Assembly: GCA_018653085.1 (NCBI GenBank)
Contig: JABIAY010000053.1
Coordinates: forward strand, 190,561-254,560
DNA: 64,000 bases
Direction of reading: 5' to 3'
Source of the DNA: Nitrospina sp.
GTDB lineage: Bacteria; Nitrospinota; Nitrospinia; Nitrospinales; VA-1
Both the position numbers and the translations under genes were made by a program. Numbering within the stretch: the stretch's first letter is position 1; every line of letters begins with the position of its first letter. This document shows positions 2,520 to 47,147 of the stretch, piece by piece. The notes under the pieces were generated by a model. The model saw only the letters and a program-made list of their open reading frames with translations, was not told the DNA's origin and did no database searches.

Positions 2520-2712
2520 TCCGCCAGGCGCGAGGCCAGCGTGCCATCGCTTTATTTGGTAGCCGTGATACTCTTCCTTAGCTTTTACCCTTGCAGGGCA
2601 TGAAGACAAATGAAGAGGGTGTCACGCGTGTCCCGCAGGGGTAAAAGAGTTATCTCGGCTTAACGAGTTCTTGCTCAGTTGCATTTCCTCCCACGGGAGT
2701 GGCCCGGTCGGC
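2520..2712. repeat. dispersed palindromic repeat cluster between phoB and phoR
   Basis: Contains modules seen many times in the window: CCAGCGTGCCATCGCTTTA, GTGATACTCTTCCTTA, two variants of a 'gtgcccc-gcaggggtaa' hairpin, GAGTTATCTCGGCTTAACGAG and CCTCCCACGGGAGTGG. No ORF is credible here. It occupies the whole phoB-phoR spacer. Confidence 0.8.
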
Positions 2713-2713
2713 T

Positions 2714-3403
2714 TTAAGTTTCTGTGAACCGGTACCCAACACCACGGACTGTTTCGATATATTTCGAAACGGTGCCTAAATTTTTTCGCAAGCCTACAAT
2801 TTGAAAATCTATAGCCCTGTCGGTAATTGCGTACCCATCCCCTCGAACTGCATCTACAATTTGACCGCGTGTGAAGACCCAGCCAGGCCTTCGAGCAAGA
2901 AACTCGAGAATTTTAAACTCAGTAAGGGTTAACTTTACCAACTGTCCTTTTACATAGACTTCATATTTTCCCAGATGAATTTCCAGATCGGGAAATACAA
3001 TTGTCGTGGACTCAGGTGAATCGTCCCCTTGCTTTCTCCTCAAGACAGCTTTCACCCGACTGAGAAAAACTTTTACGCTGAAAGGTTTGGTGACATAGTC
3101 ATCCGCTCCCAGCTCGATCCCAATCACAATATCTGATTCTTCCCCCTTTGCAGTCAACATTATTATGGGGATATGGTTTGTGTTCGAATCGTTCTTTAAT
3201 TGACGGCATACTTCCAACCCATTCATTCCCGGAAGCATCAAATCGAGAACCAGCAAATCGGGCGATATTTTTCTGGCTTCCTGCAACCCTGATTCTCCAG
3301 ACCCCACGCACTGCACCTGGTGACCTTCTTTGCTTAAGTTATACTTGAGCAGTTCCTGAATATCTTCCTCATCTTCTACAACGAGAATGTGTTTTTGTGC
3401 CAT
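2714..3403 (-). CDS. phoB: PhoB-like OmpR-family response regulator
   Basis: 229 residues. A receiver domain (about 4-120) has the acidic pair in VVEDEED, phospho-acceptor Asp54 in LVLDLMLPGMNG, Thr in MLTAKGE and the switch Lys in VTKPF. A winged-helix DNA-binding domain follows (about 130-229) with TLTEFKILEFLARRPG and a recognition segment near GDGYAITDRAIDFQIVGLRKNLG; it ends with the usual ETVRGVGYRF. Partner of the adjacent PhoR-like kinase. The upstream region (3429-3446) contains TTTAATC and GTTAAGG spaced 11 bp, which could be an autoregulatory box. PhoB is the best name from family and context; another OmpR-family role is possible. Confidence 0.85.
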   Translation of the reverse strand: MAQKHILVVEDEEDIQELLKYNLSKEGHQVQCVGSGESGLQEARKISPDLLVLDLMLPGMNGLEVCRQLKNDSNTNHIPIIMLTAKGEESDIVIGIELGADDYVTKPFSVKVFLSRVKAVLRRKQGDDSPESTTIVFPDLEIHLGKYEVYVKGQLVKLTLTEFKILEFLARRPGWVFTRGQIVDAVRGDGYAITDRAIDFQIVGLRKNLGTVSKYIETVRGVGYRFTET

Positions 3404-3428
3404 ACCTGCTTACCTTATTCATAATAGA

Positions 3429-3446
3429 TTTAATCAATTGTTAAGG
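3429..3446 (-). promoter_or_regulatory. weak candidate Pho box upstream of phoB
   Basis: Minus-strand CCTTAAC-AATT-GATTAAA has 11-bp spacing and shares TAAC-AATT with the porin box at 682-710. It lies 26-43 bp upstream of the phoB start. Only two half-sites are recognisable and the region is AT-rich, so chance is plausible. Confidence 0.25.
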
Positions 3447-3484
3447 AAAGTATAGCCTTTGTTTGGGAATTGGGGTGTTAGGTT

Positions 3485-3811
3485 TTGGTTAGCCACCGGC
3501 GAGCCTCCCCTGCCAAGGGGCTAGCCCACTCCCGCGGGAGGGAACATAGCAATTACTTTTTAAGCCGAGATAACTCTCTACTCGCCAGAAAAATTGCTGG
3601 TCTATGCAAACCCCCTTTATCCCCCTTATCAGGGGGAATTATTAAAGTATTGCGCTTGATGACTTGGTCTGCTTGACGGGCAATGCAGTGCTGGCCCCAC
3701 GCCTAGTGGCCCCTTAGCAGGGGAGGCAGAGAGCAAGGGCTTTTTGAGCCGAGATAACTCTCTGCTCGCCAAATAAAGCGACGGCACATTGGCCCCACGC
3801 CTAGTGGGGCT
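3485..3811. repeat. dispersed palindromic repeat cluster (several modules in tandem)
   Basis: Fills the gap between phoB and the DUF1566 gene. Modules include AGCCGAGATAACTCTCT followed by RCTCGCCA (twice), a CCCCCTTATCAGGGGGAA hairpin (about 3630-3647), CCCCTTAGCAGGGGAGGCAG, and GGCCCCACGCCTAGTGG at 3693-3709 and again at 3791-3807. The two copies are exactly 98 bp apart, indicating tandem elements. The last copy abuts the stop codon of the DUF1566 gene. Confidence 0.85.
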
Positions 3812-4238
3812 AGGGGTCGCGGCGGACAAGGCGTACTGCGTGGGAAATAGTTTTGTCGTCCTTGCCGTACCAATAGGCGCATCCGTTCATATAGAACAGG
3901 ATTTGTGCTTCTTCGCCACGGATGGATGAGGTCCAGGTGCAGTTCGCCGCGCCAGGGGGAAATATGGAGTCGAGATGAATATCGCCACCCTTAAAATCTT
4001 TATTCAACATGTCCTTGTCATAAATGGATGAGGCCTCATGAATGGTCGGGATGCGCCAGTCATCATATCCCCCCACTTTTTCCTTGTTCATTTTTTTCAG
4101 GTATTCTTCCGTTTCTGCGTAAGACACCTCTTTATCCATATCCAACCACGAGTCGTTTGCCATCCAGGTGACGCTGGTCAGCGAATCGTAAATAGTTCCA
4201 TCGTCTCTTTTCAAAAACCGTGATTTTTCGTTACCCAT
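3810..4238 (-). CDS. DUF1566 (Lcl C-terminal-like) domain protein
   Basis: 142 residues. The sequence shows the DUF1566 signature: VTWMANDSW near the N-terminus, a central DDWRIPTIHEASSIYD (DWRLPT-type motif) and a terminal HAVRLVR. Usually this domain is found in secreted or surface proteins of unknown function; here there is no signal peptide. Start ATG 4238 has ACGGAGAA upstream. The stop TAG (3810-3812) is immediately followed by a CCCCACTAGGCGTGGGG repeat, so the 3' end coincides with an element boundary. The molecular function is unknown. Confidence 0.7.
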   Translation of the reverse strand: MGNEKSRFLKRDDGTIYDSLTSVTWMANDSWLDMDKEVSYAETEEYLKKMNKEKVGGYDDWRIPTIHEASSIYDKDMLNKDFKGGDIHLDSIFPPGAANCTWTSSIRGEEAQILFYMNGCAYWYGKDDKTISHAVRLVRRDP

Positions 4239-4625
4239 TCTATTCTCCGTAATGACAGGGTTTCTCTTTCCGCTATCGGAAACCCAATATCTTCAAGTTA
4301 ATCGTAGGGTCCCATTTTAACCGATGCATTGGCGATTTCAAATATCGTTTAGGTGCAAGAGAAAGTGGGCTTTTCGGGTTAGTTTTGATGGGAACTGGAA
4401 TTCGATAAAACAAAAAACCTCATAACGTAGAGCTGTCAGTGTGTGTGAATAAAATGCGATTATTTTTGGTTAGACTATTGGAATTGTGTGGCAATTTGCG
4501 GACCTGGGAAATTTTCGGAAACCCTGCTGTTATATGGGAGGTATTGAGCTTACAATATTTGTGCATTAAATACGCAGTGTTTGGTGTAGTGGATTACAAC
4601 ACGCCTCCTGAGCAACAGGGTCACC
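4239..4625. other. intergenic region between divergent genes
   Basis: AT-rich spacer between the DUF1566 gene and the sensor kinase. It contains a hairpin at 4258-4285 (GGGTTTC/GAAACCC outer arms, TTTCCG-CTAT-CGGAAA inner arms) just upstream of the DUF1566 start. I see no convincing coding sequence or RNA gene in the rest. Confidence 0.5.
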
Positions 4626-7040
4626 ATGTCTCTTTTCTCAACATTCAGGAACATAGTCATCATTATAGTTAGCCTGTTTTGTCTGGTCAGTTTTTCTGTT
4701 TACCGGATGAATATGCTTGAAAAAGCACATGGCCGTGCATTGTCTCAGCAGGCAGAATTGAGGGAGTTGGGAGAGAAGCTGGCGTGGGGTTCTGATTATT
4801 TAACAGATGAAATTCGCCGTCACGTACAGTTTGGAGACATGTCTCATTATTACAATTTCTGGAATGAGGTGAATGTCAACCGGTCGCGGGACAAAGCTGT
4901 TGAAAGACTGAAGGAGCTTAAAGTTTTGCCGAGCGACTTGGCCTACATTGAAGAAGCCAAAGGGTACTCTGACCACTTGATCGAGACAGAAGTAAAGGCC
5001 ATGGAAGCAGTTGAAAGCAATGATTTGGACGAAGCAAGAAGGCTGGTGTTTGGCGAATATTACGGTGAGCAGAAGGGCCTGATCCTGGGAGATATTAAAA
5101 AGTTTCAGGGTACTGTTAATGCCCGAGCGCAAGCCCTTACAGAACATTTCCATAATGAAATGTCATTCTTCATGATGCTCACAAACCTTCTGCTGTTGGT
5201 TTCCGGAGTGCTTGTTTTATTTCTTGTGTACAGTATTGGTATCAGGCGCCTTCTCAATCCGCTTAAATATTTAACCCATATTATGCAGGAACTTGTGCAG
5301 GGTAATCTGGAGATCCCGATTCAGGTATCAGGCAGAAGAGACGAGATGTCGGAGATGGGTCAAGCGCTACAGGTTTTTAAAGAAAATGCCATCGAGAAAC
5401 AAACTGCTGAGCTCGAACTTTTCAGGGTCAACAGGTCCAGAAGTCTTATCCTGGAATCAGTGGGGGAGGGAATTTATGGTCTGGGTCTGGATGGACAGGT
5501 AGCCTTTCTCAATCCCATGGCGGAAAAACTCCTGGGCTATTCTCTGGAAGAATTAAAAGGTAAACCCGCCCATTTATTAATCCACCATTCCAAGTCGGAT
5601 GGAAGACCTTACCCTATTGACGAATGTCCTGTTTATTGAGCATTTTGTGATGGTGAAATATACAACGAGAAGAACGAAATATACTGGAGAAAAGATGGTT
5701 CAAGCTTTCCTGTTGAATACACCAGTACACCTATCTATGAAGAAGGCAAACTGGCAGGTGCCGTTGTGGTCTTCAAGGATATTTCTGAACGCAAATATGC
5801 TGATGATGTGCTCAAGCAGATTGTTGTGGGGACCTCGGCCGCGATCGGGGATGATTTTTTAAAAGCACTTGTCAAAAACCTGGCGACATCTCTCCGTGTT
5901 AAATACGCTTTTATTGGAGAACTGACTGGAGGTAAACCGGAAAAAGTTGTGACCCGCGCAGTTTGGGCAAATGGAGCACTCGCTGAAAACTTTGAGTATG
6001 GTTTGAAGGACACTCCCTGTGAAAACGTGGTGAGTAATAAGGCTTGCTACTACCCAAACGATGTTCAAAATCTTTTTCCGAAAGACCTGTTATTGGTGGA
6101 GATGGGAGTGGAAAGCTATCTGGGTGTGCCATTGTATGACAATGAAAAAAAGGGTCGGGGACTCTTGGTGGTTCTGCATGACGCGGAAATACCAGAAAGC
6201 ATAGACCCTCAAGCCATTATGCAGGTGTTTGCCAACCGAATTGAAGCCGAACTGGAACGCCACGATGCACAGATGAAACTTGATAAGCACCTCAACGATC
6301 TTGAAAGACTGGTCGGGGAACGTACCGCCGCTTTGGAGACAAGTAATCAGAACCTCAGCGAGTTTGCCTTCATAGCTTCCCATGATCTGCAGGAACCACT
6401 CCGTAAAGTGATACTGTTTGGAGATAGGCTGGGGGAGCTAAATCGGGGTTTAGACGAGAAAAGCCGTGACTATATCAATCGAATGCAGGGGGCCACGGTT
6501 CGAATGCAGGATTTAATTGATGACTTGCTACTGTTTTCAAAGTTAACAACCTACAGTTCGCCATTTGTAAAAATTGACTGCAACAAAATTATCGAAGGTA
6601 CTTTGTCAGACCTTGAGGCCAGGGTAAACGAGTCCCGGGGAACAATAAATGTAGATAAATTGCCGGACATAGAGGCCGACTCGTTTCAAATGCGCCAGTT
6701 GTTTCAGAACCTGATCGGCAATGCCCTCAAATACCGTAAAGAAGATGTTGATCCTGTGATCAACATTTCTGCCCAGCCCGATGGAAATGGAAATGTGGTA
6801 ATAAAAATCGAGGATAACGGTATCGGGTTTGATGAAAAATATAAGGATAAAATTTTCCAACTCTTCCAGCGGTTGCATGGGAAAAATGCCTACGGAGGAA
6901 CCGGTATGGGGCTCGCGATCTGCAAAAAAATAGTCGAACACCATAGCGGAAGCATGACTGTCGACAGCACCCCAGGTGTGGGCACAGCCTTTCAAGTCAG
7001 CCTGCCTAAAAAGCATCCTCTATCTGAGAGGACAGGTTAG
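4626..7040 (+). pseudogene. membrane sensor histidine kinase interrupted by an in-frame UGA
   Basis: One 804-codon frame reads from ATG 4626 to TAG 7038-7040, broken only by TGA at 5637-5639 (codon 338). Before it: TM1 (about 8-26), a periplasmic helical region, TM2 (about 180-203), HAMP and the first half of a PAS domain ending DGRPYPIDECPVY. After it, in the same frame, PAS resumes (AFCDGEIYNEKNEIYWRKDGSSFPVEY), then GAF (about 390-550), HisKA with ASHDLQEPL, and HATPase (ED.GIGF, GGTGMGLAI). A downstream GTG at 5766 could begin a 424-residue soluble GAF-kinase, but it has no clear ribosome site. The residue expected at the stop is not conserved enough to guess. Nonsense mutation, sequence error or readthrough are all possible. 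Confidence 0.75.
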
Positions 7041-7065: not shown

Positions 7066-7209
7066 ACCTCAAGGGCTTAACGAGCTTTGCCCTATTGGCC
7101 CTCCGCCGAGCCCCTTAGCAGGGGAGGCAGATAGCAAGGGCTCTTTGCGCCGAGACCACTCTTTGCCTGCCAGAAAAAGCGATGGCATATTGGCCCCACG
7201 CCTAGTGGT
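7066..7209. repeat. dispersed palindromic repeat cluster
   Basis: Contains CCCCTTAGCAGGGGAGGCAG, GCAAGGGCTCTTTGCGCCGAG, the TGCCAGAAAAAGCGATGGCA segment and CCCCACGCCTAGTGG. The last module overlaps the 3' end of the nitrilase gene and provides its TAG stop codon (7202-7204, minus strand). Confidence 0.85.
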
Positions 7210-7984
7210 AGAGATCTTCGCGGCGGTCTTTGAAAATGTGGTTGTGGGGTGTGAGGTATTTGTCGCGGGCTTTTTCCAGATCGATTTCGACGATTTGGAC
7301 TTCCTCTTCGGTTTTGGATGCACGGACTAGAATATTTCCATCCGGGTCTACAACTTGGCTCTGGCCTATAAATTTAAGAGCTCCCATACGTTCTTCACTT
7401 CCTACCCGATCAGCAGTGACGGCAAAGACGCGGTTCTCCAGGCAACGGGTGATCATTGCCTGAGGGCAATGGGCCAGGACGAGGTTGGAGGGGTGGGCGA
7501 TCAGGTCCGCTCCCAACAGGGCCAGCGTCCGGGCTGTTTCAGGAAAGCGCCAGTCGAAACAGATCATAACTCCTACTTTTGCATTGGCGATATCAAAGAC
7601 TTGGAGCGGCAGGTTTCCTGAGTCGAAGCAGAGCTTTTCTGTATCAAAAAGATGGAGCTTGCGGTATTTCCCAATATAGCCGTTGGGACCGATGATGACG
7701 GCGGAATTGTACACATGGTTTTCATCGGCTTCGGCAAGACCGGCGATTATAAAAGCATTGGTTTTTTTTGCGAGAGCGGTCAGCGCATTGGTGGTGAGGC
7801 CTCCGGGAACTTGCTCTGCGAAACTACGTGACTCTTCTTTATCTTTGAACTGATACCCTGAGGCAAAAAGTTCAGGAAGAACAAACAGGTCGGCACTGTG
7901 CCCGTCAAGAAGCTCTTCAACCCGGTCGAGGTTTTTCTGAATGCTACCAAACGCGGGTTTGTTTTGAATAAATCCTACTCTCAT
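7202..7984 (-). CDS. carbon-nitrogen hydrolase (nitrilase superfamily)
   Basis: 260 residues, the usual single-domain length. The catalytic triad is visible: Glu38 in FVLPELFASGY, Lys109 in KYRKLHLF and Cys142 in VMICFDWRFPE. It should hydrolyse an amide or carbamoyl C-N bond; the closest look is to omega-amidase/N-carbamoyl amidohydrolase-type members, but the substrate cannot be read from sequence. It begins 13 bp after aroC and is probably co-transcribed with it. Its stop codon TAG lies inside the CCACTAGGCGTGGGG repeat, so the natural C-terminus was set by insertion or recombination of that element. Confidence 0.85.
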   Translation of the reverse strand: MRVGFIQNKPAFGSIQKNLDRVEELLDGHSADLFVLPELFASGYQFKDKEESRSFAEQVPGGLTTNALTALAKKTNAFIIAGLAEADENHVYNSAVIIGPNGYIGKYRKLHLFDTEKLCFDSGNLPLQVFDIANAKVGVMICFDWRFPETARTLALLGADLIAHPSNLVLAHCPQAMITRCLENRVFAVTADRVGSEERMGALKFIGQSQVVDPDGNILVRASKTEEEVQIVEIDLEKARDKYLTPHNHIFKDRREDLYH

Positions 7985-15578: not shown

Positions 15579-15956
15579 TTATTGTTCCACTTCCATCAGT
15601 TTTTTGCGGATGTAATGCACCACTGCACGAATTTCCTCTGTGGTTAGCCGCGACTCCCAAGGCATCATGGCGGTGCCCTTCCTCCCTTTGGTGACGGATT
15701 GGATCATCCGTTCTTCTGTCAGTTCCTTTTTTGATTTCTTTGCGGTGAAATTTTTCGGGGGTGGATTCAGTACGTTGGACGCGAAGGTTTTTCCATCGCC
15801 TTTATCCCCATGACAGGCTTTGCAATGTTTGTAGAAAATATCTCTTCCTGTTTCCAAATCGGCAGGATTGGCTGATGCGTGGGAGGCCCAGCTGATGAGG
15901 GCTAATAATAGAAAAACCAGGCTTTGTTTTTTTTGTTTGCTTGTAATGTAAATCAC
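15579..15956 (-). CDS. periplasmic mono-haem cytochrome c
   Basis: 125 residues. The signal peptide (1-29) is cleaved after SHASA, followed by a class I cytochrome c fold with CKACH (Cys45, Cys48, His49), a PPPKNF loop and distal Met in GTAMMPW. It resembles small c6/c555-type electron carriers of the periplasm. The only sensible start is GTG 15956, which lies inside the AAATCACCCC end of a palindromic repeat; the GGGGCTGGG Shine-Dalgarno is also repeat sequence. The gene converges with the thiamine-binding protein gene. Redox partner unknown. Confidence 0.85.
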   Translation of the reverse strand: MIYITSKQKKQSLVFLLLALISWASHASANPADLETGRDIFYKHCKACHGDKGDGKTFASNVLNPPPKNFTAKKSKKELTEERMIQSVTKGRKGTAMMPWESRLTTEEIRAVVHYIRKKLMEVEQ

Positions 15957-16137
15957 CCCAGCCCCTCTTTGGTAAAGAGGGGTCCATTAAAACCCCCTCA
16001 GTCCCCCTTATCAGGGGGAAGATATTAGAGTATTACCCCTCCGGGGCACGAGAGCTTAGGAGGAATATCACGTGCGCTTGAGTGCTCAGCCTGCCTTATG
16101 GGCAATGCAGTGCGGGCCCCACGCCCAGTGGTTAGCG
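15950..16137. repeat. dispersed palindromic repeat cluster
   Basis: Begins with the AAATCACCCCAGCCCCTCTT module (compare 24804 and 27494), then a CCCCCTTATCAGGGGGAAGA hairpin, a TTACCCCTCCGGGGCACG hairpin, GGGCAATGCAGTG and GGCCCCACGCCCAGTGG. The left edge supplies the start region of the cytochrome c gene and the right edge meets the glnD stop codon. Confidence 0.85.
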
Positions 16138-23392: not shown

Positions 23393-23600
23393 GGTCAATC
23401 ACCCCAACCCTCTTTGAAAAAGAGGGGGCAAAAGCCAACCCCCTCAGTTCCCCTTATTACCCCTTCGGGGCACGTGTGATATCTCTCTTCACTTGCCTTC
23501 ATGCCCTGAAAGGGTAAAGTCCTTGGAAGAATATAACGGAAGTTTTTTTATTGCCACTGGCGGCTCGCCGGTCACATGGGCTCCGCGCCGAGTGGGGGGG
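23393..23600. repeat. dispersed palindromic repeat cluster
   Basis: Starts with the TCAATCACCCCAACCCTCTT module, followed by CCCCTTCGGGGCACGTG, TGATATCTCTCTTCACTTGC and GCCGAGTGGGGGG. The final 29 bp encode the last residues of the phosphoesterase on the minus strand (LTPPLGAEPM). Confidence 0.75.
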
Positions 23601-24803: not shown

Positions 24804-24879
24804 AAATCACCCCAGCCCCTCTTTGTAAAAGAGGGGTCCATTGAAGCTCCCCCTTCCACGAAGGGGGTTGGGGGGATTT
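24804..24879. repeat. 76-bp element with terminal inverted repeats
   Basis: Begins AAATCACCCCAGCCCC and ends GGGGTTGGGGGGATTT, imperfect terminal inverted repeats of about 16 bp. Inside are the hairpins CCCCTCTT..AAGAGGGG and CTCCCCCTT..AAGGGGG. Nearly identical in length and sequence to 27494-27569. It lies between arsC and the phosphoesterase gene. Confidence 0.85.
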
Positions 24880-25326: not shown

Positions 25327-25375
25327 ACAGTTTAAATATACCACCCTCTAACATCAGGGGGAAATACCACGGGGA

Positions 25376-25562
25376 TTGGGGGGATGAGGCAAGGGTTCGT
25401 CAAGCCGAGATAACACTTTGTCAGCTAGGTAAAGTCATTGCCAGTTGCCCCTGCGGCTAGCCCCTTAGCAGGGGAGGCAACTGGGCAAGGGCTTGATTGC
25501 GCCGAGAAAACTCTTTGTTCGCCAAATAAAGCGACGGCACGCGGGCCCCACGCCTAGTGGTT
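25376..25562. repeat. dispersed palindromic repeat cluster upstream of lexA
   Basis: Two tandem units: CAAGCCGAGATAACACTTTG plus CCCCTTAGCAGGGGAGGCAA, then TTGCGCCGAGAAAACTCTTT, GTTCGCCAAATAAAGCGACGG and CCCCACGCCTAGTGG. It ends about 60 bp before the lexA start. Apart from the lexA promoter I see nothing else in the arsC-lexA gap. Confidence 0.85.
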
Positions 25563-26231: not shown

Positions 26232-27485
26232 ATGAACTCTCGCAAAATTTTACATGTGGATATGGATGCGTTTTTCGTGTCGGTGGAAGAGGTGCTCGAC
26301 CCCTCCCTGAAAGGCAAGCCGGTAATAGTTGGCGGCCGGGCCATGCCCGGTGAGCGCGAGGCAATAGCTCCTCAAGCCGAGAGCACGCTTGCTCGCCAGA
26401 AAAAATTATTGCCCTCTGCCTCCCCCGTTAGGGGGGTGGTTGCCGCTGCGTCTTACGCAGTAAGGCGGTATGGCGTTCATTCCGCCATGCCGATAGCGCA
26501 AGCGAAACGGCTTTGTCCGCACGCTATTTTTCTTAGTGGTTCGCAAAGGCGGTACAGCGAATACTCGGTGAGAGTGTTTGAAATTTTAAAACGCTATTCT
26601 CCTTTGGTGGAACCGATGTCACTCGATGAGGCGTTTGTCGATTTGACCGGATGCGAACGACTGCACGGTCCGGTTCTGAAGGCAGGGGAAAAAATCCGTA
26701 ACGAGATTCGTGAGGAACTGGGACTGAACGCTTCTGTTGGTATCGCTTCCAACAAACTGCTGGCAAAGATCGCCTCGGCTTATTGCAAACCTAACGGAAT
26801 GCTGTGGATCGCTCCGGGAATGGAGCAAAGATTTCTGGCGCCGCTTCCTATTCGACGTATTCCGGGAATCGGGCCGAAGGGCGAGGCCGAACTAAGGCGC
26901 ATGGGTATCAAGTCTGTAGGCGACCTTGCCCGCCTGCCGCTTGAATCGCTGGCTTGTGGCAAATGGGGCGCATCGCTTTATCGCAAGGCCCGGGGAATCA
27001 GCGAGAGTCCGGTCATCGGCGAAACCGTAGACCCGCGTTCCATCAGCCGCGAGACGACATTGGAGACGGACTCGGCAGACCCGTTATTTCTCGAGTCCAC
27101 ACTCAGTTACCTGACCGAAAAAGTGGCGGGTCAGCTAAGAGAAAATAAATTGTTTGCTCGTACGGTAACGTTGAAACTGCGGTACTCTGATTTTAAGACG
27201 GTGACCCGATCGAAAACACTGGAGATGCCAACGGCGGAAGATCATACACTATTGAAAACCGGCGCGGGATTGTTCCGCAAGTTGTTCACACATCGGACGC
27301 GGGTGCGTCTCATCGGTATCACGTTCACTTCGCTGACAGCAACCTCTGACAGGCAGGAAGATTTGTTTGATCATAAAGGCGGGCAATGTTGGGACAACCT
27401 GTACCAGGGCATCGACCGCATCCGTCATAAATATGGGTTCCGTTCCATTTTGCGTGCACGCAGTAGCCAGCGTGATGCTAACTGA
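26232..27485 (+). CDS. dinB: DNA polymerase IV with a repeat-encoded internal insertion
   Basis: 417 residues. Y-family polymerase: HVDMDAFFVSVEE (Asp10, Asp12), SLDEAFVDLTGCERL, the helix-hairpin-helix RIPGIGPKGEAELRRMG, and a little-finger domain to the end. It performs error-prone lesion bypass in the SOS response. Residues 43-67 have no counterpart in ordinary DinB, where the GG loop runs directly into RGVV..A.Y..R..GV. They are encoded by 75 nt (26358-26432) closely matching the intergenic palindromic repeats, and the frame is kept. The insertion lies in the fingers/palm loop after the second strand, so activity may survive. It follows lexA closely. Confidence 0.93.
   Translation: MNSRKILHVDMDAFFVSVEEVLDPSLKGKPVIVGGRAMPGEREAIAPQAESTLARQKKLLPSASPVRGVVAAASYAVRRYGVHSAMPIAQAKRLCPHAIFLSGSQRRYSEYSVRVFEILKRYSPLVEPMSLDEAFVDLTGCERLHGPVLKAGEKIRNEIREELGLNASVGIASNKLLAKIASAYCKPNGMLWIAPGMEQRFLAPLPIRRIPGIGPKGEAELRRMGIKSVGDLARLPLESLACGKWGASLYRKARGISESPVIGETVDPRSISRETTLETDSADPLFLESTLSYLTEKVAGQLRENKLFARTVTLKLRYSDFKTVTRSKTLEMPTAEDHTLLKTGAGLFRKLFTHRTRVRLIGITFTSLTATSDRQEDLFDHKGGQCWDNLYQGIDRIRHKYGFRSILRARSSQRDAN
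26358..26432 (+). repeat. palindromic repeat inserted in frame within dinB
   Basis: 75 nt (25 codons) containing GCAATAGCTCCTCAAGCCGAG, GCTCGCCAGAAAAA and CTCTGCCTCCCCCGTTAGGG. These modules recur in gaps at 3541-3600, 7123-7176 and 39733-39800. GGCAATA/TATTGCC close an internal hairpin. Removing the 75 nt restores an uninterrupted GERGVVAAASY segment. Confidence 0.85.
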
Positions 27486-27493: not shown

Positions 27494-27569
27494 AAATCAC
27501 CCCAGCCCCTCTTTGAAAAAGAGGGGTCCATTGAAGCTCCCCCTTCTACGAAGGGGGTCGGGGGGATTT
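27494..27569. repeat. 76-bp element with terminal inverted repeats
   Basis: Same 76-bp length and almost the same sequence as 24804-24879: AAATCACCCCAGCCCC at the left end, GGGGTCGGGGGGATTT at the right end and two internal hairpins. Its right end overlaps the start codon and provides the purine-rich Shine-Dalgarno of the class V aminotransferase gene. Confidence 0.85.
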
Positions 27570-34041: not shown

Positions 34042-35064
34042 TTGAATCAGGTGTCCCGCATTAAAAGTTCTGCCCCCACCCGGATTGATTTAGCCGGGGG
34101 GACGCTGGACATCTGGCCTTTACATCTGTTTTTTGATAGCCCCCCCACCCTCAATGCGGCTATCGACCTTTATGCCACGGTAGAAATCCTTCCCCGAAAA
34201 GACAAGCGGATATTCTTAACCTCAGGCGATTTAGGTTTGAGCGACAACTTTCCCTCGCTGAGCGCGGTTCCAGACAATCATCCTTTGGAACTCATTGTGC
34301 GCACCTTGAAGTTCTATGCGCCAAAATCGGGACTGGAAATATCTACAGACTGCCAGGCTCCGCAAGGGTCGGGCATTGGTGGTTCCTCGGCTTTGAATAT
34401 TGCCTTGCACGGGGCACTCAACCGTTTTACCGGCCGGGGTTACCGCAAGGCTGAGATGATTGAAATCGCCAAAAATATTGAGACTCAGGTTATTAAGGTT
34501 CCCGCAGGATGTCAGGATTATTATCCGGCGATGTATGGAGGGGTGAGAAAAGTTTTGCCCGGAGTGCGAGGCACCGAAACTGAAAAGTTTGATATCAGCC
34601 CTGCCGAGCTGACCCGGCATTTTGTCCTGTGTTATACCGGCAAACCGAGAAACTCGGGGATCAATAACTGGGATGTGACGAAAAAGGCTGTGGATGGCAA
34701 CAAGACAGTGATCCGTCACCTGAAATCCATTCGGGATTGTGCCGTGGAAATGGAGCGGGCATTGAGCCGGGGACATCTTAAAAGTATAGCCCCGATTTTT
34801 GCCCGGGAATGGAAAGCCCGAAAACAGTTGGCTCCCAATATCAGTACTCCCCAGATGGATCGGTTGATGCGTGCCGCCCAGAAAAAGGGTGCATTGGCTG
34901 GCAAGGTCTGCGGTGCAGGTGGCGGCGGGTGCGTGGCCTTCATTGTGCCACCAGCCAAAAAACAATCCGTCATGGAAGAACTCACCTCAAAGGGCGGGCA
35001 AGTGCTCCCCTTCCGTTTCGTCTCCCGCCCACTGGCCGTGAAGGCAACTAGCAATAGCGATTAG
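34042..35064 (+). CDS. GHMP-family sugar kinase
   Basis: 340 residues from TTG 34042 (GTG 34051 also possible), 5 bp after mlaC. The GHMP motifs are present: APTRIDLAGGTLDIWPL, the ATP loop QGSGIGGSSALNIALHGAL, and C-terminal GALAGKVCGAGGGGCVAF. It resembles D-glycero-D-manno-heptose 7-phosphate kinase or L-fucose-type kinases, which feed surface-sugar nucleotide synthesis. The last residues (about ATSNSD) are encoded by ACTAGCAATAGCGATTAG, which belongs to the palindromic repeat that follows, so the stop codon is repeat-derived. Confidence 0.82.
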   Translation: MNQVSRIKSSAPTRIDLAGGTLDIWPLHLFFDSPPTLNAAIDLYATVEILPRKDKRIFLTSGDLGLSDNFPSLSAVPDNHPLELIVRTLKFYAPKSGLEISTDCQAPQGSGIGGSSALNIALHGALNRFTGRGYRKAEMIEIAKNIETQVIKVPAGCQDYYPAMYGGVRKVLPGVRGTETEKFDISPAELTRHFVLCYTGKPRNSGINNWDVTKKAVDGNKTVIRHLKSIRDCAVEMERALSRGHLKSIAPIFAREWKARKQLAPNISTPQMDRLMRAAQKKGALAGKVCGAGGGGCVAFIVPPAKKQSVMEELTSKGGQVLPFRFVSRPLAVKATSNSD

Positions 35065-35215
35065 AGCCGAGAAAACGTTTGCCGGCCTCATAAAGACATT
35101 GCAATTTACTAGCGGAGGTTCTCCGCCCACTCCGCGTGGGGCGAATTAGCAATAACTCTTCTGGCAAGCGATAGGTTAACTCGGCGCAATCAAGCTTTTG
35201 CTCGTTATCTTTCTT
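35045..35215. repeat. dispersed palindromic repeat cluster
   Basis: Modules ACTAGCAATAGCGATTAG, GCCGAGAAAACGTTTGCC, TACTAGCGGAGG, CCACTCCGCGTGGGG, TAGCAATAACTCTTCTGGC and TTAACTCGGCGC. It separates the convergent GHMP kinase and MMPL genes and overlaps the 3' end of the former. Confidence 0.75.
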
Positions 35216-35236
35216 TTGTGGATTGCCAATTTGTGG

Positions 35237-38598: not shown

Positions 38599-39279
38599 AT
38601 GGGTTTTTCCCCGGCACTGAAATATTTAGTCATCGTTATCGTAACCCTGGGAATGGGTTTTTCGGTCTGGCTCCTGCCGCATGGCAAAAAGATAAAAGAA
38701 GAGTCCATCACCACTCCTATTGATGCCAAAGACGAAGCCGGTCGCTACCTGCAACAGGCATCGGAAGATTTTTTCTATCACGAGTTTGATCGGGCCATTG
38801 AGAATTATGGCAAGGCCATCACGGCTTTCGAAAAAGAAAACCAGTTGAAAAAGGCCGCGAAGGTTTACGAGTCCATCGGCGACCTGTATAAATTTCGTAG
38901 AAACCTTGAGGCCGCCAAGGCGCAATACATCCTGGCCATGAAATACCACCACAAAATCAATAATCCGCTAGGTGAAGCCCGGGCCATGAACCATGCTGGC
39001 GATTTGTTTATGGAACGGGGTGATAACGTTTCGGCGGGAGCCTGGTATAAAAAAGGGGTGGAACTGATTAAAGATATTCCCCCTCATCAGAATCAGGCAC
39101 TTTTGTTCGAGAATATGGGGCGTTTTTACTGGAAAACAGAAGAAAATATTCCCGAGGCCATCGTCTGGTATACCCGCACCCGCGATGTTTTTTCCGCCCT
39201 GGAAAACCAGATGGGCTACGACCATATGACCGCAGTGCTCAATAAACTCAGGGGCGGTCAGAACCTGAATACCCACTAG
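38599..39279 (+). CDS. membrane-anchored TPR protein
   Basis: 226 residues. An N-terminal TM segment (about 8-26) is followed by three to four tetratricopeptide repeats: FDRAIENYGKAITAFEKENQ, KVYESIGDLYKFRRNLEAAKAQYILAMKYH, EARAMNHAGDLFMERGDNVSAGAWYKKGVEL, and a fourth near PEAIVWYTRTRDVF. It probably scaffolds an inner-membrane complex, but no partner can be named. The stop TAG is part of CCACTAG at the edge of a repeat cluster. Confidence 0.75.
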   Translation: MGFSPALKYLVIVIVTLGMGFSVWLLPHGKKIKEESITTPIDAKDEAGRYLQQASEDFFYHEFDRAIENYGKAITAFEKENQLKKAAKVYESIGDLYKFRRNLEAAKAQYILAMKYHHKINNPLGEARAMNHAGDLFMERGDNVSAGAWYKKGVELIKDIPPHQNQALLFENMGRFYWKTEENIPEAIVWYTRTRDVFSALENQMGYDHMTAVLNKLRGGQNLNTH

Positions 39280-39500
39280 CCCTCCTAGGCGGAGGGCCAA
39301 TGTGCAATTGCCCTCTCTGGCGAGCAAAGAGTTATCTCGGCTGAAAGAGATCTTGCCAGTTCCCTCCCACGGGAGTGGGCTCGGCGGAGTGCCAGTGTGC
39401 CATCGCTTTATTTGGCGAGCAGAGAGTTATCTCGGCTTAACAAGTCATTGCTATACTCCCTCCCACGGGAGTGGGCTCGGCTTAACAGGTCATTTGTCTG
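39275..39500. repeat. dispersed palindromic repeat cluster
   Basis: Two full units in the same direction: GGCGAGCAAAGAGTTATCTC then CTCCCACGGGAGTGGGCTCG, and again CATCGCTTTATTTGGCGAGC, AGAGTTATCTCGGCTTAACA and CTCCCACGGGAGTGGGCTCG. A CCCTCCTAGGCGGAGGG hairpin marks the left edge at the TPR-protein stop codon. Confidence 0.85.
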
Positions 39501-39508
39501 GAGGAGGT

Positions 39509-39673
39509 ATGGTCGAAGATAAAAGAACGGTAGATAGAAGGAAAACGAACCGGAGAACTCAGGAAAGAAGAGATGTCGAGAGAAGGTTTGTTTTTTTCGA
39601 TCGATTATTTAAATTCCTGTTTGCCAGCATTGTTATTCTGATAGCTGTTTGGGTTTATATTTTTACCGAATAG
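39509..39673 (+). CDS. small single-TM protein with Arg-rich N-terminus
   Basis: 54 residues from ATG 39509, directly behind GAGGAGG. The N-terminus is strongly charged (VEDKRTVDRRKTNRRTQERRDVERR) and a single TM helix (about 30-51, LFKFLFASIVILIAVWVYIF) ends two residues before the stop. A longer reading is open upstream, but that part is translated repeat sequence and lacks a start signal. No family recognised. The topology is cytoplasmic N-tail, by the positive-inside rule. Confidence 0.6.
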   Translation: MVEDKRTVDRRKTNRRTQERRDVERRFVFFDRLFKFLFASIVILIAVWVYIFTE

Positions 39674-39723
39674 AAATTAATGATTTTTAAAAATAAAATT
39701 CCGGTATTTTTTTGCATCTTTTT

Positions 39724-39880
39724 GCAATGTGCAATAGCTCTGTTTGGCGAGCAAAGAGTTGTCTCGGCTGAAAAAGCTATTGCTCTCTTCCTCCCCTACG
39801 GGATATCTCTCTTCACTTGCCTTCATGCCTCGAAGGGGTACTAAGGGGCCACCAGGCGTGGGGATCAATGCCGGGGATTT
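39724..39880. repeat. dispersed palindromic repeat cluster
   Basis: Modules GCAATAGCTCTGTTTGGCGA, AGAGTTGTCTCGGCTG, GCTATTGCTCTC, a GATATCTCTCTTCACTTGCC stretch, CCTCGAAGGGGTACT and CCACCAGGCGTGGGG. Its first half is the closest intergenic relative of the segment inserted in dinB. Confidence 0.8.
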
Positions 39881-40546: not shown

Positions 40547-41005
40547 ATGAAAGTAAATATGAAGATGTTGCTTGAAGAAGATTTAGATTGGTTTGTAGAG
40601 CAAATGCAGAAAGTCCGGGCCTTTTCGGTCCTTTCCCATAAGGAGCTGAAGCACGTTGTTTCACAAATGAGGAGTTTCCATTTCAGGGCCGGGACTACGA
40701 TTGTGAGTCAGGGTGAACAGGCGAATTTATTTTTTATAGTTCATGAGGGCGAAGTCGAAGTATCCGTGAAGAAATTTTTTTTCGGGGAAAGACAGGTTGC
40801 AATCCTAAACCCTGGAGACTTTTTTGGTGAAAGTGCCCTGGTCTCGGATTCCAAGCGAAACGCTACCGTCACAGCAAAGACAGACACGTCCTGTTTTGTT
40901 CTGCTCAAACCCAGTTTTAACTTCATGCTGAAACAAAACCCGCTTTTCAAGCAAAACATGAAGGTCGTCTTCTCCAGACGAAAACTACAACTAAAAAACG
41001 CCTAA
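40547..41005 (+). CDS. cyclic-nucleotide-binding domain protein
   Basis: 152 residues, essentially one cNMP-binding domain: FRAGTTIVSQGEQANLFFIVHEGEVEVS and the phosphate-binding cassette PGDFFGESALVSDSKRNATVTAKTD with the key Glu and Arg. There is no helix-turn-helix or enzymatic domain. It may be a regulatory subunit acting by protein contact. A short N-terminal helix (WFVEQMQKVRAFSVLSHKELKHVV) precedes the domain. ATG 40547 lies behind GGTGAAGG. Ligand (cAMP, cGMP or none) unknown. Confidence 0.82.
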   Translation: MKVNMKMLLEEDLDWFVEQMQKVRAFSVLSHKELKHVVSQMRSFHFRAGTTIVSQGEQANLFFIVHEGEVEVSVKKFFFGERQVAILNPGDFFGESALVSDSKRNATVTAKTDTSCFVLLKPSFNFMLKQNPLFKQNMKVVFSRRKLQLKNA

Positions 41006-41007: not shown

Positions 41008-41330
41008 GGCTAGCCGCCGGGGGCAACTAGCAATAACCCGTTTGGCTAACAAGAAACTATCTCGGCTTAACAAGTCATTGCTATACTCCCTCCCACGGGA
41101 GTGGGCTGGGCGTGGGGCCAGCGTGCACGTGATATTCTTCCTTAAACTTCGTGCCCCGAAGGGGTAATTGCCCGTCAAACAAGCTACGTCATCAAGCGCA
41201 CGTGATACTCTTCCTCAACTTTCGTGCCCCGCAGGGGTAATACTTTAATATCTTCCCCCTGACAAGGGGGCTAGGGGGTTGCCTTGGTCGTCATTGCGGC
41301 ACAGCAATGACAAATACAAAAAACTCCCCC
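41008..41330. repeat. dispersed palindromic repeat cluster (largest, about 320 bp)
   Basis: Carries CAACTAGCAATAACCCGTTT, ACTATCTCGGCTTAACAAGT, CCCTCCCACGGGAGTGGG, two GTGATAYTCTTCCT...CGTGCCCCG(A/C)(A/G)GGGGTAAT units, a CCCCCTGACAAGGGGG hairpin and GTCATTGC-ggcaca-GCAATGAC. No coding capacity. Confidence 0.85.
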
Positions 41331-41688: not shown

Positions 41689-42060
41689 ATGGAAGAGCTG
41701 ATCCTTATAATCCATTTTCTCGTGGTTTTGTTTTTCATTCTCGGGTTCCCGATCGGACTTTTTTATAATTCCCGCCTGTTCCGTATCATTCACTTTTCTG
41801 CGTTAGCGGGGGTGTCTCTGCTGATGGTTCTGGGTATACCCTGCCCCTTAACAATTCTGGAAGAAACTTTAAGACAGGATCCGGTTTATGAGGGTTCTTT
41901 TATAGCTAGTTGGCTGAGCCGGGTTCTCTATATGGAGGGGTTCGATCCCAAACACGTACTGTTCATGGATCTTGGTTTTCTTACGCTGGTGGGGTCATCT
42001 TTCTTCTGGCGGCCCACTAGGCGCCAGCGTGATACCCCTTCGGGGCACGAAGGCAAATGA
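41689..42060 (+). CDS. DUF2784-like small membrane protein
   Basis: 123 residues from ATG 41689. Three to four TM helices: about 2-22 (LILIIHFLVVLFFILGF), about 30-49 (IHFSALAGVSLLMVLGI) and about 85-100, with a conserved-looking PCPLTILEETLR motif typical of DUF2784. The last about 15 residues (PTRRQRDTPSGHEGK) are encoded by CCCACTAGGCGCCAGCGTG and the CCCCTTCGGGGCACGAAGG hairpin of the repeat family, so the C-terminus is repeat-derived. Function unknown. Confidence 0.72.
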   Translation: MEELILIIHFLVVLFFILGFPIGLFYNSRLFRIIHFSALAGVSLLMVLGIPCPLTILEETLRQDPVYEGSFIASWLSRVLYMEGFDPKHVLFMDLGFLTLVGSSFFWRPTRRQRDTPSGHEGK

Positions 42061-42166
42061 TGAGCATAACGCGCGACCCAATTTGCAATAGCTTGTCAAG
42101 TTAGCGAACAGTTATCGCGGCTTGATGGGGGTTGGTTTTTCTCCCTCTTCTAGAAAGAGGGGTTAG
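42013..42166. repeat. dispersed palindromic repeat cluster
   Basis: CCCACTAGGCGCCAGCGTGA, CCCCTTCGGGGCACGAAGG, CAATAGCTTGTCAAGTTAGCG, AACAGTTATCGCGGCTTGAT and CCCTCTTCTAGAAAGAGGG. The left part is translated as the tail of the DUF2784 protein and the right edge meets the stop codon of the next, convergent gene. Confidence 0.8.
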
Positions 42167-43121: not shown

Positions 43122-43123
43122 GC

Positions 43124-44650: not shown

Positions 44651-45017
44651 AATGTCTTTATAAAAAAAGGCTCGCCTTTTTACTGGAAGAGGTTGATATC
44701 GATGGGCAGTCTATATTCATGCCCCGGCGCAATCAACCTCAAATTTTCAAATCGGGTGCAAGGTTTGTGAGACAAATATGTGGGTGAGTCGGGGCGATGG
44801 GCCATCACCAGAAATAGGGAGGAACCCATTATGGGTTCTACGCAAAGAGCCCGATCACGATGATTGCACAGAAAAACAGGGGTAACTCTTTTATTATAAG
44901 AGTCTTGCAGACTTGGAACGGGGTATTTGGCCCCGGCGTTCCCCTCGCCATGGGAAGTTGAAATCAAGGGTCTTGTTTAAGGTTAAAAACCTTTTAAAAT
45001 CAGGCTCTAGGGAAAGT
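44651..45017. other. gene-free region with four consecutive inverted repeats
   Basis: Holds AAAAAGGC-tc-GCCTTTTT (44664-44681), GAACCCAT-t-ATGGGTTC (44822-44838), ACTCTT...AAGAGT (44885-44903) and GGAACG...CGTTCC (44915-44942). On the minus strand the first would act as an intrinsic terminator with a U-run. A small RNA or a decayed gene may lie here; the 95-codon open frame at 44680-44967 is not convincing. Confidence 0.4.
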
Positions 45018-45046
45018 TTGACAATCCGCGTTCGGGTTACTAGAAT
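45018..45046 (+). promoter_or_regulatory. strong sigma-70 promoter of NuoF-like gene
   Basis: TTGACA (45018-45023), exactly 17 bp, TAGAAT (45041-45046). It leaves a leader of about 130 nt before ATG 45181. Confidence 0.7.
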
Positions 45047-45180
45047 GGCTGGAATTTTCCTGAGTTATATGACATATTGTCGAGTCTGGTGGATGTTATT
45101 TTTTCCCGCCGGATACTGGGACTATCAAATTCATTATCGATAAAATTTTCGAATAACGACGGGTATCAAGGAGATTGTTC

Positions 45181-47010
45181 ATGGAAGCCGTTGAAGAACA
45201 GGGCCAGGCCGTTGCTCAGAAACAAGGCCAGATAAAAATCACCGTATGCTTGAGCCTGAGTGGAGTTGCTGAAGGCGGTCAGGAAGTTTACGACGAATTT
45301 CAGAAGCAGATTTCTGAAATGGAAGCCAATGCCACGCTCGGTGAGCGAAAATGTGAAATGGGCCAGGTCGGGTGCCGGGGCTATTGCAGTCGTGATGTGC
45401 TGGTAGATGTTTATATTCCCGGTGAAGCGCGGGTGACCTACGAGAAGGTTAAGCCTGCGATGGTCAAAAACATTTTGAATGACCATATTGTGGGCGGCAA
45501 GGTGTTTAAAAAGGCCGCGTCCAAAGACGACTATTACGAGACGTTGGGAAAACAGACCCGTGTCGCGTTGGAACACAGCGGTGCTATCGACCCGGAAAAT
45601 ATTGATGAGTACATCCGGGTGGGTGGTTATGAATCCTTGAAAAAGGTTTTGACTTCCATGAAGCCGGATGCGGTGACCGCCGAGGTCAAAAAATCCGGAC
45701 TGCGCGGCAAAGGCGGCGGCGGATTTGTCACCGCGACCAAATGGGAGAAGGCGGCCAAGGCTCCGACTGACGAAAAAGGGACCCGTTACATTATGGTCAA
45801 TGGAGACGAGGGCAACCCCGCTTCCTATATGGATCGCAGTGTCATGGAAGGCAACCCGCATCAGGTGATCGAAGGTCTGCTGATCGGAGCTTATGCTATT
45901 GGCGCAACGGAAGGGATCATCTACACGCGTTCGGATTATACGATTGCGGTCAGGCGGCTGAATAAGGCTCTGGAACAGGCCAGGGAACGAGGTTTCCTGG
46001 GTGACAAGATTATGGGCACGGAATTCAGTATTAACTTTCGGGTGCATGAGGGACTGGAAGCGTTTATCGGCGGAGAGTCCACGGCATTGATGCAATCGGT
46101 TGAGGGCAAGCGTCCTTTCCCGAAAGCACAACCGCCACATTCCTGCGATGCCGGGTTGTGGGGCAAACCGACACTTTTGAATAACGCAGAAACCTGGGCC
46201 ACCGTTCCCAAGATCATCAAGAATGGCGCGGACTGGTATGCGGCAATGGGCAACGAAAATGCCCAAGGCTGCAAGGTATGGGCAATTTCCGGCAACATCA
46301 AATACAACGGATTGATGGAGCTGGACATGAAAACAACTTTCAAGGAAGCCATTGATGATTATTGCGGTGGTATTCAAAAGAAAAAACCACTCAAGGTGGT
46401 TCATGTAGGCGGTGTGACGGGGGGATTCCTTCCGCCGGAAAAAGCTGACACTGCAACGGATTACGAAAGCCTTTTGGATGCGGGTGTGCTGATGGGCCAG
46501 GCCAGTTTTGCGGCCTATGATGAATCGGCTTGTGTGATTGATCTCGCGCTTTTTGCTATCGGATTTAACGAAGGCGAAACCTGCGGCAAATGTACTCCCT
46601 GCCGGATCGGTCTGACACTCATAAAAAATAAATTAACTGATATCGCCGAGGGCCGGGGCAAAATGGAAGACTTGGACAAGCTTCAGGCATTGTGCGAGGA
46701 AATCAGCCAGTCTTCTTTATGCGGGTTGGGGGAAACGGCACCGAAGGCGGTTCTTACCGGACTGAAATATTTCCGTAAAGAATATGAACGGCATATCGTG
46801 GACCAGATTTGTGACGCGGCACGGTGTACGGGGCTTTACCGCTATGTAGTTAAGGAAGAAGACTGTGTAGCCTGTGGCGCATGCATCAAGCCCTGTCCTA
46901 CTGGGGCGATCACCGGGGGAACCCGTAAAGTTGCGGCGCATATTGATATGGACTTGTGCATCAACTGCAATGCCTGTTACCAGGCCTGTGGGTTTCTGGC
47001 GATTGTATAG
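45181..47010 (+). CDS. NuoF/HoxF-like flavo-iron-sulfur oxidoreductase subunit
   Basis: 609 residues from ATG 45181, behind AAGGAG. Domains: thioredoxin-like 2Fe-2S domain (about 15-100), Complex-I 51-kDa FMN/NAD domain (about 140-350) with RGKGGGGFVTATKWEK and VNGDEGNPASYMDRS, SLBB (about 370-440), a 4Fe-4S helical domain with CGKCTPCRIG, and two C-terminal [4Fe-4S] motifs (CVACGACIKPC, CINCNACYQAC). It would pass electrons between NAD(P)H and ferredoxin or a partner. No NuoE, hydrogenase or formate dehydrogenase subunit is adjacent. The first domain has CLSLSG where C-x4-C is usual, so it may lack a normal 2Fe-2S cluster. GGEST replaces the common CGEET. Confidence 0.85.
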   Translation: MEAVEEQGQAVAQKQGQIKITVCLSLSGVAEGGQEVYDEFQKQISEMEANATLGERKCEMGQVGCRGYCSRDVLVDVYIPGEARVTYEKVKPAMVKNILNDHIVGGKVFKKAASKDDYYETLGKQTRVALEHSGAIDPENIDEYIRVGGYESLKKVLTSMKPDAVTAEVKKSGLRGKGGGGFVTATKWEKAAKAPTDEKGTRYIMVNGDEGNPASYMDRSVMEGNPHQVIEGLLIGAYAIGATEGIIYTRSDYTIAVRRLNKALEQARERGFLGDKIMGTEFSINFRVHEGLEAFIGGESTALMQSVEGKRPFPKAQPPHSCDAGLWGKPTLLNNAETWATVPKIIKNGADWYAAMGNENAQGCKVWAISGNIKYNGLMELDMKTTFKEAIDDYCGGIQKKKPLKVVHVGGVTGGFLPPEKADTATDYESLLDAGVLMGQASFAAYDESACVIDLALFAIGFNEGETCGKCTPCRIGLTLIKNKLTDIAEGRGKMEDLDKLQALCEEISQSSLCGLGETAPKAVLTGLKYFRKEYERHIVDQICDAARCTGLYRYVVKEEDCVACGACIKPCPTGAITGGTRKVAAHIDMDLCINCNACYQACGFLAIV

Positions 47011-47027
47011 GATTGATTTTTATAAAA

Positions 47028-47147
47028 GCCTGCTGCCACTAGGCGTGGGGCCAACTAGCAATAGCTCGTTGGGCTGAGTAAATGCTTGCCCACAAAATAA
47101 AGACATCATAGCTTGCCTCACGCCCAGTGATCGGCAGGCTTTTTTTA
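47028..47147. terminator. repeat-built bidirectional terminator
   Basis: GCCTGC (47028-47033) and GCAGGC (47135-47140) close a long stem that contains CCACTAGGCGTGGGGC on one side and GCCTCACGCCCAGTG on the other, followed by T7. The interior carries CAACTAGCAATAGCTCGTT as in other repeats. It sits between the convergent NuoF-like and peptide-binding protein genes and is the rightmost palindromic repeat of the window. Confidence 0.7.

Follow-up and report, generated by a model that had tools for sequence, protein, structure and literature searches.

The window, a 64,000-nucleotide stretch of genome G000 from a member of the Nitrospinaceae (Nitrospinota), carries short repeats in and around its genes, dinB, glnD, lexA and nuoF among them. 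The initial annotation had described these repeats as a palindromic family in a lineage far from Rickettsia, which is borne out, and the modules it named are real: by comparison with shuffled expectation all lie far above chance in the window (GCCGAGATAACTCTCT at 9 sites against 0.33 expected, CCCCACGCCTAGTGG at 8 against 0.06, and CTCCCACGGGAGTGGGCTCG at 5 against 0.00). Listing them as separate items did not stand, since GCCGAG..GCTCGCCA is the core of a single element, which we call A, with CCCCACGCCTAGTGG and CTCCCACGGGAGTGG as cap hairpins that can replace one another at the ends; element B, of exactly 39 bp (TACCCCTTCGGGGCACGAAGGCTAAGGAAGAATATCACG), is a second element separate from A, and the third member of the group is a 76-bp AAATC..GATTT element. 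G000 holds genome-wide at least 106 copies of A, 95 of B and at least 40 of the 76-bp element. The Rfam 15 covariance models gave no match in the window, and a literature search, which was not exhaustive, returned no earlier description of Nitrospina palindromic repeats, nor one in a comparative-genomics paper on the Nitrospinota.

Element A consists of a dyad of about 53 nt, GCAATAGCTTTTTAAGCCGAGAAAACTCTTTGCTCGCCAGAAAAAGCTATTGC, flanked by two small GC-rich cap hairpins, for a total of about 97 bp. Its copies were located with a profile search (R1), which finds 15 distinct cores in the window; an 855-kb sample of G000, on which the statistics are based, contains 116 copies. Stems of at least 5 bp occur in 124 of 232 A flanks, compared to 17 in shuffles, and fall into about ten different stem types, such that the caps are conserved as structures and not as sequences. 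The consensus folds strongly as DNA (z of -5.3), but a strongly conserved central stem was rejected, the long arms pairing imperfectly in many copies (alignment A1, by eye); wholesale stem replacement is seen in the caps only (alignment A1, flank stems). There is no excess of open reading frames in A, with 1.32 open frames against 1.45 in shuffles. A search for half-elements in the 855-kb sample found only three stray half-sites outside known copies, giving little sign, within this sample, of an autonomous partner bounded by A half-ends.

Several copies of A in the window lie directly against gene ends. The full-length copy at 3709..3807 (+) has both caps (R1, 76.1 bits; 63 BLAST matches in its own genome), and lies downstream of an Lcl-domain gene (3810-4238, -) whose stop starts 3 nt past the element. 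At 7110..7208 (+; R1), the right cap provides the TAG stop (7202-7204) of a carbon-nitrogen hydrolase gene (7202-7984, -), the C-terminus of which was compared with those in G003, G005, G012 and G021. The copy at 35029..35120 (+) takes the place of the stop of a GHMP kinase gene, the product of which gains C-terminal residues (..SRPLAVKATSNSD*), according to R1 and sister comparison, and a second one, at 35126..35236 (-; R1 and sequence), abuts the stop of an MMPL gene (35237-37732, -). A further copy follows the gene at 40547-41005, where the TAA stop is directly followed by a cap hairpin (41008..41110, -; R1). Tandem pairs are found upstream of lexA (25374..25560, +; R1 matches 25380-25451 and 25477-25550) and, with 95-bp spacing, from the stop codon of the gene at 38599-39279 (39280..39483, -; R1 and repeat comparison). 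The remaining sites are composite: A with its right part joined to an AACCCCC..GGGGG module (3526..3640, +; R1 match 3540-3593), A followed by B (39802-39840) and then a cap hairpin (39719..39863, -; R1 and B model), and B (42033-42071, +) beside a degenerate A core (42076-42133, -; R1 and B search), together spanning 42033..42133. Another one, at 2524..2711 (-) between two two-component genes, is an A split by a nested B that is itself split by a reversed B (R1 matches 2532-2559 and 2644-2682; B model positions 1-17 and 18-39 flank the reversed B); at this locus the sister G003 has an 82-bp spacer containing neither A nor B.

Copies of B occur at seven loci of the window, several of them nested in A or in other repeats. 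A repeat at 3651..3709 (+), TGCGCTTGA..GGGCAATGCAGTGCTGGCCCCACGCCTAGTGG, is 81% identical to 16073-16131, and has at its left border an empty B site, AAAGTAT^TGCGC; at 16034..16072 (+) a B occupies TAT^TGCGC, for which further copies of the same repeat provide the empty site (score 42). Two further copies (41128-41166 and 41201-41239) sit in a repeat TGCGCTTGATGACGTAGCTTG..GGGCAAT at 41128..41239 (-), with empty sites for both, and at 23458..23538 (+) a reversed B interrupts another B at model position 17/18 (B model). Overall, 12 of 27 B copies leave a known ungapped sequence when exactly 39 bp are taken out, at a score of at least 28, against 0-2 for length-changing controls, a threshold chosen after the first result, in which the count without a cut-off did not separate from the controls. 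What excises is a unit of exactly 39 bp, the host repeat being recovered without a target-site duplication, and the nucleotides to the left of B vary (GAT, TAT, ATT, CTT, TTG). A cap hairpin (16117..16131, +; from the sequence) directly follows the glnD stop (TAA, 16132-16134 on the minus strand); in G003, glnD and its neighbour gene are about 6 bp apart, with no repeat between them.

The 76-bp element, AAATCACCCC..GGGGGGATTT, has two full copies in the window in addition to partial ones, such as the truncated AAATCACCCC-type element at 15949..16011 (+; repeat family D4). Both full copies were assigned by repeat comparison and from the sisters. The one at 24804..24879 (+) is present in G021 in reversed orientation, and the other, at 27494..27569 (+) between dinB and an aminotransferase gene, has a counterpart in G012 in which a B-like element lies between the same two ends.

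The genomes searched, mostly multi-contig drafts and, for the named relatives, metagenome-assembled, show A in all 16 genomes of the genus, with only 10-12 copies in G005, G007 and G011. Members of two other genera carry 2-18 copies, and six more genera of the family, as sampled, yielded none. Within this set of genomes, A is abundant only in this genus and was found in three genera of the family. Its presence differs site by site between sister species: at conserved gene junctions, summed over sister comparisons, A is found in G000 only at 26, in the sister only at 7 and in both at 9. Counts of B also differ: G021 has 146 where G003 has 18, G012 has 134 where G022 has 10, and G021 contains two sets of eight identical B copies. 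The exact A or B pattern was not found in an IMG/VR search, on which basis carriage by phages was rejected.

The proposal that most repeats sit at gene boundaries is supported by the sample. Only 10 of 116 A cores lie inside predicted ORFs, where 81% would be expected, whereas 56 of 116 lie within -12..+30 nt of a stop codon, compared to 2.4% of random positions, and in 61 of 616 genes the stop falls within the span of A and its caps. The stops concerned are unusual in that TGA accounts for 5 of 73 near A, against 200 of 543 (37%) elsewhere (Fisher, 2e-8); the bias towards stop codons could stem partly from TAG stops supplied by the element itself. A is also over-represented in convergent spacers (32 of 105; baseline, 46 of 307), and many spacer copies do not adjoin a stop. 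The suggestion that several repeats are translated survives in part: the overlap inside dinB and many overlaps with stop codons remain, while some others vanish once gene starts are corrected, as for the ORF at 39302-39673, for which ATG 39509, preceded by a ribosome-binding site, GGAGGAGG, is the most likely start.

The copy inside dinB, in frame and the one secure gene-interior insertion among the 116 sampled, occupies codons 36-67 of the gene (26337..26432, +; core 26359-26423), with 96 bp in place of the 15 bp found in the sisters (net +81). In-frame inserts of at least two sequence types occur at the same codon in five of about 30 family genomes, and the gene tree requires five insert changes, at least four of them forced; a public Nitrospinaceae record (L114) also has an insert there. 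Structure prediction renders the insert as a low-confidence loop (pLDDT <50) in an otherwise well-modelled polymerase, suggesting a loop that tolerates in-frame inserts. The inserts of G027, G028 and G045 gave no R1 match, and are therefore other or decayed sequences, for which an A-type origin was rejected. The G050 insert is closer to the dinB insert of G000 than to any other sampled G000 copy, so that for this pair one old insertion followed by several losses is possible. The second insertion with a clear empty site is in the nuoF terminator, which carries A in its loop (47036..47129, +) between stem arms at 47028-47033 and 47134-47139, followed by a T-run at 47140-47146; the hairpin is uninterrupted in nine of ten sisters, and G009 has a degraded insert. 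No exact empty site of A with precise ends was obtained. Some of the target bases have been replaced in dinB as well as in the terminator, so that recombination or template switching, in place of transposition, may account for the spread of A.

That the repeats are mobile is clear, and we consider it highly probable that A, B and the 76-bp element together make up a community of mobile DNA elements in the Nitrospinaceae that are short, form hairpins, are non-autonomous and have biased insertion sites. Such elements would copy themselves to new sites, with TAG and TAA stops (directly behind or on them), existing repeats and small hairpins as preferred targets, B doing so without duplicating its target; purifying selection would then remove most gene-interior copies, with the dinB loop tolerating in-frame ones. 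Behind the spread we infer an intermediate in hairpin (single-strand) form and an enzyme acting in trans. One candidate for the latter would be a Y1 (HUH) transposase, as in REP/RAYT or IS200/IS605-type systems, possibly lost from G000 after a burst, and the hairpins and the insertion of B without target duplication do fit single-strand transposition. The initial annotation saw no RAYT in the window, and this extends to the whole of G000, where Y1_Tnp (PF01797) was not found. The gene is present in 4 of 16 genus genomes and 12 of 46 family genomes, including the two with the highest B counts, G021 and G027, and in G005 the gene has an A/B remnant at a distance of about 640 bp (in G027, an A is distant). 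Element counts are nevertheless uncorrelated with it: it was not found in 11 of 15 congeners of G000, including the A-rich or B-rich G003, G008, G010, G012 and G022, while G005 has it with elements nearly absent, and G032 and G033 have it with no A or B. Neither A nor B was found near the Y1_Tnp genes of G021 (a 6-kb stretch), G023 and G004, and the variable left flanks of B are a further difficulty. We therefore rejected RAYT as the driver and regard movement of A and B by a Y1 transposase as unlikely. Reverse transcriptase (PF00078) was rejected on the same grounds, being present in 4 of 16 genus genomes, G000 included, and absent from G003, G010, G012 and G021; the driving enzyme is probably neither of the two. 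A parent IS for A or B was not found.

One could also speculate that no dedicated enzyme is involved, and that during replication the hairpins give rise to template switching, unequal crossing-over and gene conversion, by which modules would be duplicated and exchanged. The mosaic architecture, the tandem 95-97-bp arrays, the swapped caps, the in-place inversion of the 76-bp element in G021 and the replaced target bases all agree with this, but exact 39-bp insertions of B at many unrelated sites, large bursts between close relatives, and sequence-biased sites beside stop codons suggest a specific process, leaving the idea somewhat unlikely. Less likely still is a function as structured RNAs or 3'-end elements, such as terminators or mRNA stabilisers, that selection maintains at gene ends. 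While the peak at stop codons, the excess in convergent spacers and the strong hairpins could be read in this manner, there is no Rfam match and no T-run typical of intrinsic terminators, A comes and goes at orthologous gene ends, it has entered an existing terminator and dinB, and many spacer copies lie away from stops. The draft and metagenome-assembled state of the genomes raises the issue of chance similarity or assembly artefact, which is extremely improbable given counts far above shuffles, hundreds of copies in independent genomes and the dinB insert in L114; for the family as a whole, chance similarity was rejected.

Considered as mobile hairpin elements, these repeats can be compared with several known systems. 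The initial annotation equated their behaviour with that of Rickettsia palindromic elements, and here we disagree: nearly half of those of Rickettsia conorii lie inside ORFs (PMC10969869), against one secure interior copy in the 116 sampled. The two share short, lineage-specific palindromic repeats, an in-frame insertion at a tolerant loop of a conserved gene, and no known autonomous partner, and A, at about 97 bp with caps, agrees with a description as many-copy palindromes of about 100-150 bp; they differ in phylum and in that interior copies are rare here, the main site being the stop codon, a separation made by behaviour and host and not by sequence. REP/BIME repeats with RAYT are likewise extragenic hairpins that number in the hundreds, located immediately 3' of genes and arranged in tandem or as mosaics, but in our case RAYT is missing from G000 and most congeners, the Y1_Tnp genes are not flanked by A/B, the cap stems are interchangeable and a 39-bp element is nested within. 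MITEs (Correia, RUP, ERIC, BOX) are also small non-autonomous spacer repeats, occasionally fused to ORFs; they differ in that we found no parent IS, no target-site duplication for B, and ends that vary where MITEs have fixed terminal inverted repeats. Finally, mitochondrial double-hairpin elements, GC clusters and repetitive hairpin-forming elements (PMC4478555, PMC2800124) are small repetitive hairpins that proliferate between genes and differ greatly between close species, although they belong to eukaryote organelle genomes and are likened to ours by description, not by sequence or mode of spread. The dominant behaviour here, abutting or supplying stops and nesting in hairpins, is closer to REP/BIME and the mitochondrial double-hairpin elements than to the Rickettsia elements. 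Whether A and B constitute a new class of bacterial mobile hairpin DNA, inserting without target-site duplication beside TAG/TAA stops and into hairpin loops by a route other than RAYT/IS200, reverse transcriptase or a DDE MITE, and having lengthened the same loop of DNA polymerase IV by recurrent hits, is a more doubtful matter, which we put forward only tentatively.

The best-known palindromic elements that proteins can accommodate are those of Rickettsia and its relatives. The repeats described here add a second such system, in relatives of marine nitrite oxidisers, for which both filled and empty sites are available, in which about 10% of the sampled genes end inside a mobile repeat, the same dinB codon is hit repeatedly, and an element of exactly 39 bp inserts without target duplication. 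Since copy numbers differ several-fold between sister species, both the identity of the mover and the siting at stop codons become testable by comparing gene content and insertion sites across these genomes.

The repeat modules that the initial annotation had named as separate units occur in the window far more often than expected by chance, but iterated profile searches reveal that most of them are parts of a single element, A, built from a dyad of about 53 nt with a conserved centre (AGCCGAG..CTCGCC) and a short GC hairpin, or cap, on either side, its ends being approximate. We analysed the window (contig C46, 190561-254560), 790 kb more of its 3.16-Mb draft genome (G000, 78 contigs) and orthologous stretches from sister species, and drew the copy and position statistics for A from an 855-kb G000 sample in which the window is counted. 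This sample holds 116 non-redundant copies of A, 15 of them within the window, and tandem units are spaced 95-97 bp apart. Cap stems of at least 5 bp are found in 124 of 232 flanks, compared with 17 in shuffled flanks, and are of some ten types (e.g. CCAC/GTGG, CCAGCG/CGCTGG, CCGGCG/CGCCGG and GCGGAG/CTCCGC); the stem is conserved, its sequence is not. Module identities in the alignment and the imperfect central arms of A were judged by inspection.

Only 10 of the 116 A cores lie within predicted ORFs (longest-ORF calls), compared with 1630 of 2000 random positions, and most of these ten ORFs are apparently spurious or called from a wrong start, leaving dinB as the sole secure case of the gene-interior insertion claimed earlier. 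Stop codons, on the other hand, are found from -12 to +30 nt of 56/116 cores, compared with 47/2000 random positions, and of the 616 genes that encode 150 aa or more, 61 have a stop falling within A plus its caps, typically as CAC-TAG-GCGTGG or with a cap directly 3' of TAG or TAA. Stops near A are TAG 42, TAA 26 and TGA 5, against 119, 224 and 200 elsewhere, TGA thus being scarcer near the element (Fisher P = 2e-8). Since several orthologues of glnD and of a carbon-nitrogen hydrolase gene stop at the same codon without any element, the stop position is native there, with the element adjoining or overlapping it, while in a GHMP kinase gene A has supplanted the stop and added a short tail.

Comparison between species reveals sites both with and without the element. 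The terminator hairpin downstream of nuoF is unbroken in nine of ten sister species (e.g. GCCTGCTGGCAACTGCCAGCAGGC-T7); in the window a 94-bp A takes the place of its loop, with outer stem and T-run kept, and in G009 the insert at this position is degraded. Across conserved gene junctions, counted per comparison, A is found in G000 only at 26, in the sister only at 7 and in both at 9. A third repeat, the 76-bp AAATC..GATTT element, lies at 24804-24879 in the window and at the same place, in opposite orientation, in a G021 spacer (L235), which suggests in-place inversion or independent insertion. At 27494-27569, the window and a G012 stretch (L244) have common ends, AAATCACC and GGGGGGATTT, enclosing two hairpins in G000 and a B-like element in G012; inner modules seem to swap inside a fixed outer frame.

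In dinB, whose product has its closest relatives among Nitrospinaceae records, codons 36-67 are an in-frame A, 96 bp standing in place of 15 bp. The catalytic Y-family motifs DMDAFF and SLDEA are unbroken in the sequence, and a structure model (mean pLDDT 83) gives the insert, residues 39-65, values below 50. This A is missing from every other congener whose N-terminus could be read, and in-frame inserts occupy the same codon in the family genomes G050, G045, G027 and G028. The insert of G050, a genome whose sequence here is also that of the public record L114, is an A element (20.7 bits); those of G045, G027 and G028 have no A match. A tree of insert-free dinB requires five changes; well-supported branches make four of these unavoidable. 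Because the G050 insert finds its best match among sampled G000 copies in the G000 dinB insert, these two could possibly descend from one shared old insertion followed by losses. Two congeners have a dinB with an internal stop (G010:C29:5734-6733 and G007:C119:1470-2522), so the genus may be able to do without it; no dinB match was found in G005 or G008.

Element B is a separate repeat of 39 bp, TACCCCTNCGGGGCAYGA..GGAAGAATATCACG, which inserts into A (at TAT^TGC, ATT^GC and CTTT^GCT), into other repeats and into itself, being interrupted by a reversed B at model position 17/18 at both 2564-2643 and 23458-23538 of the window. When exactly 39 bp are removed, the joined flanks match existing sequence ungapped for 12 of 27 copies (score at least 28), compared with 0-2 matches for controls with altered net length. 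B insertions carry no target-site duplication. In G021, which has two sets of eight identical B copies, the element sits at GAGAT^TCTTCG in a dispersed repeat of another kind; the dispersed repeat CGAGATTCTTCGTCACGTTGTTCCTCAGAATGACA of this genome often hosts B (L301, L309, L310 and others).

Among the sister and family genomes, mostly drafts for which several counts are lower bounds, A is present in 16/16 of the genus, with at least about 105 copies in six and only 10-12 in G005, G007 and G011. Elsewhere in the family sample it is confined, at low copy, to members of two other genera, and BLAST finds it in none of eight same-order genomes outside the family. The distribution of B is broader and burst-like (146 copies in G021 versus 18 in G003, 134 in G012 versus 10 in G022, and 148 in G027).

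The lack of a RAYT reported for the window extends to the whole of G000, where Y1_Tnp was not found, as in 11 of its 15 congeners. Neither Y1_Tnp nor reverse transcriptase (RT) genes follow A or B in their presence, and no A or B flanks a Y1_Tnp gene save for a remnant in G005. There, at 1649-1712 of L341, one of the few A remnants and possibly the sole B of a genome nearly free of both elements are found some 640 bp away from the Y1_Tnp gene. By eye, one G000 RT (L345, contig C5, 686-1747; PIGNLTSQFFANIYLN, YVDDF), beside large repeat-containing proteins, is of the diversity-generating type, and another (L346, contig C70, near 2320-3309), adjoining a nucleotide-hydrolase-like gene, is retron-cassette-like. 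Exact A and B patterns are absent from the phage contigs of IMG/VR.

The likeness to Rickettsia palindromic elements proposed in the initial annotation holds for in-frame tolerance, which A shares, but not for one defining feature that was tested. REPs have 3'-end location and arrays in common with A, but again A and B lack one tested defining feature; B also lacks the target duplication that defines a classical MITE. Mitochondrial double-hairpin elements and GC clusters share small hairpins and bursts with both. As neither Y1_Tnp nor RT tracks A or B, and phage contigs contain neither exact pattern, the mechanism is one we can only infer: both elements would spread via a hairpin intermediate and a putative enzyme, with biased sites.
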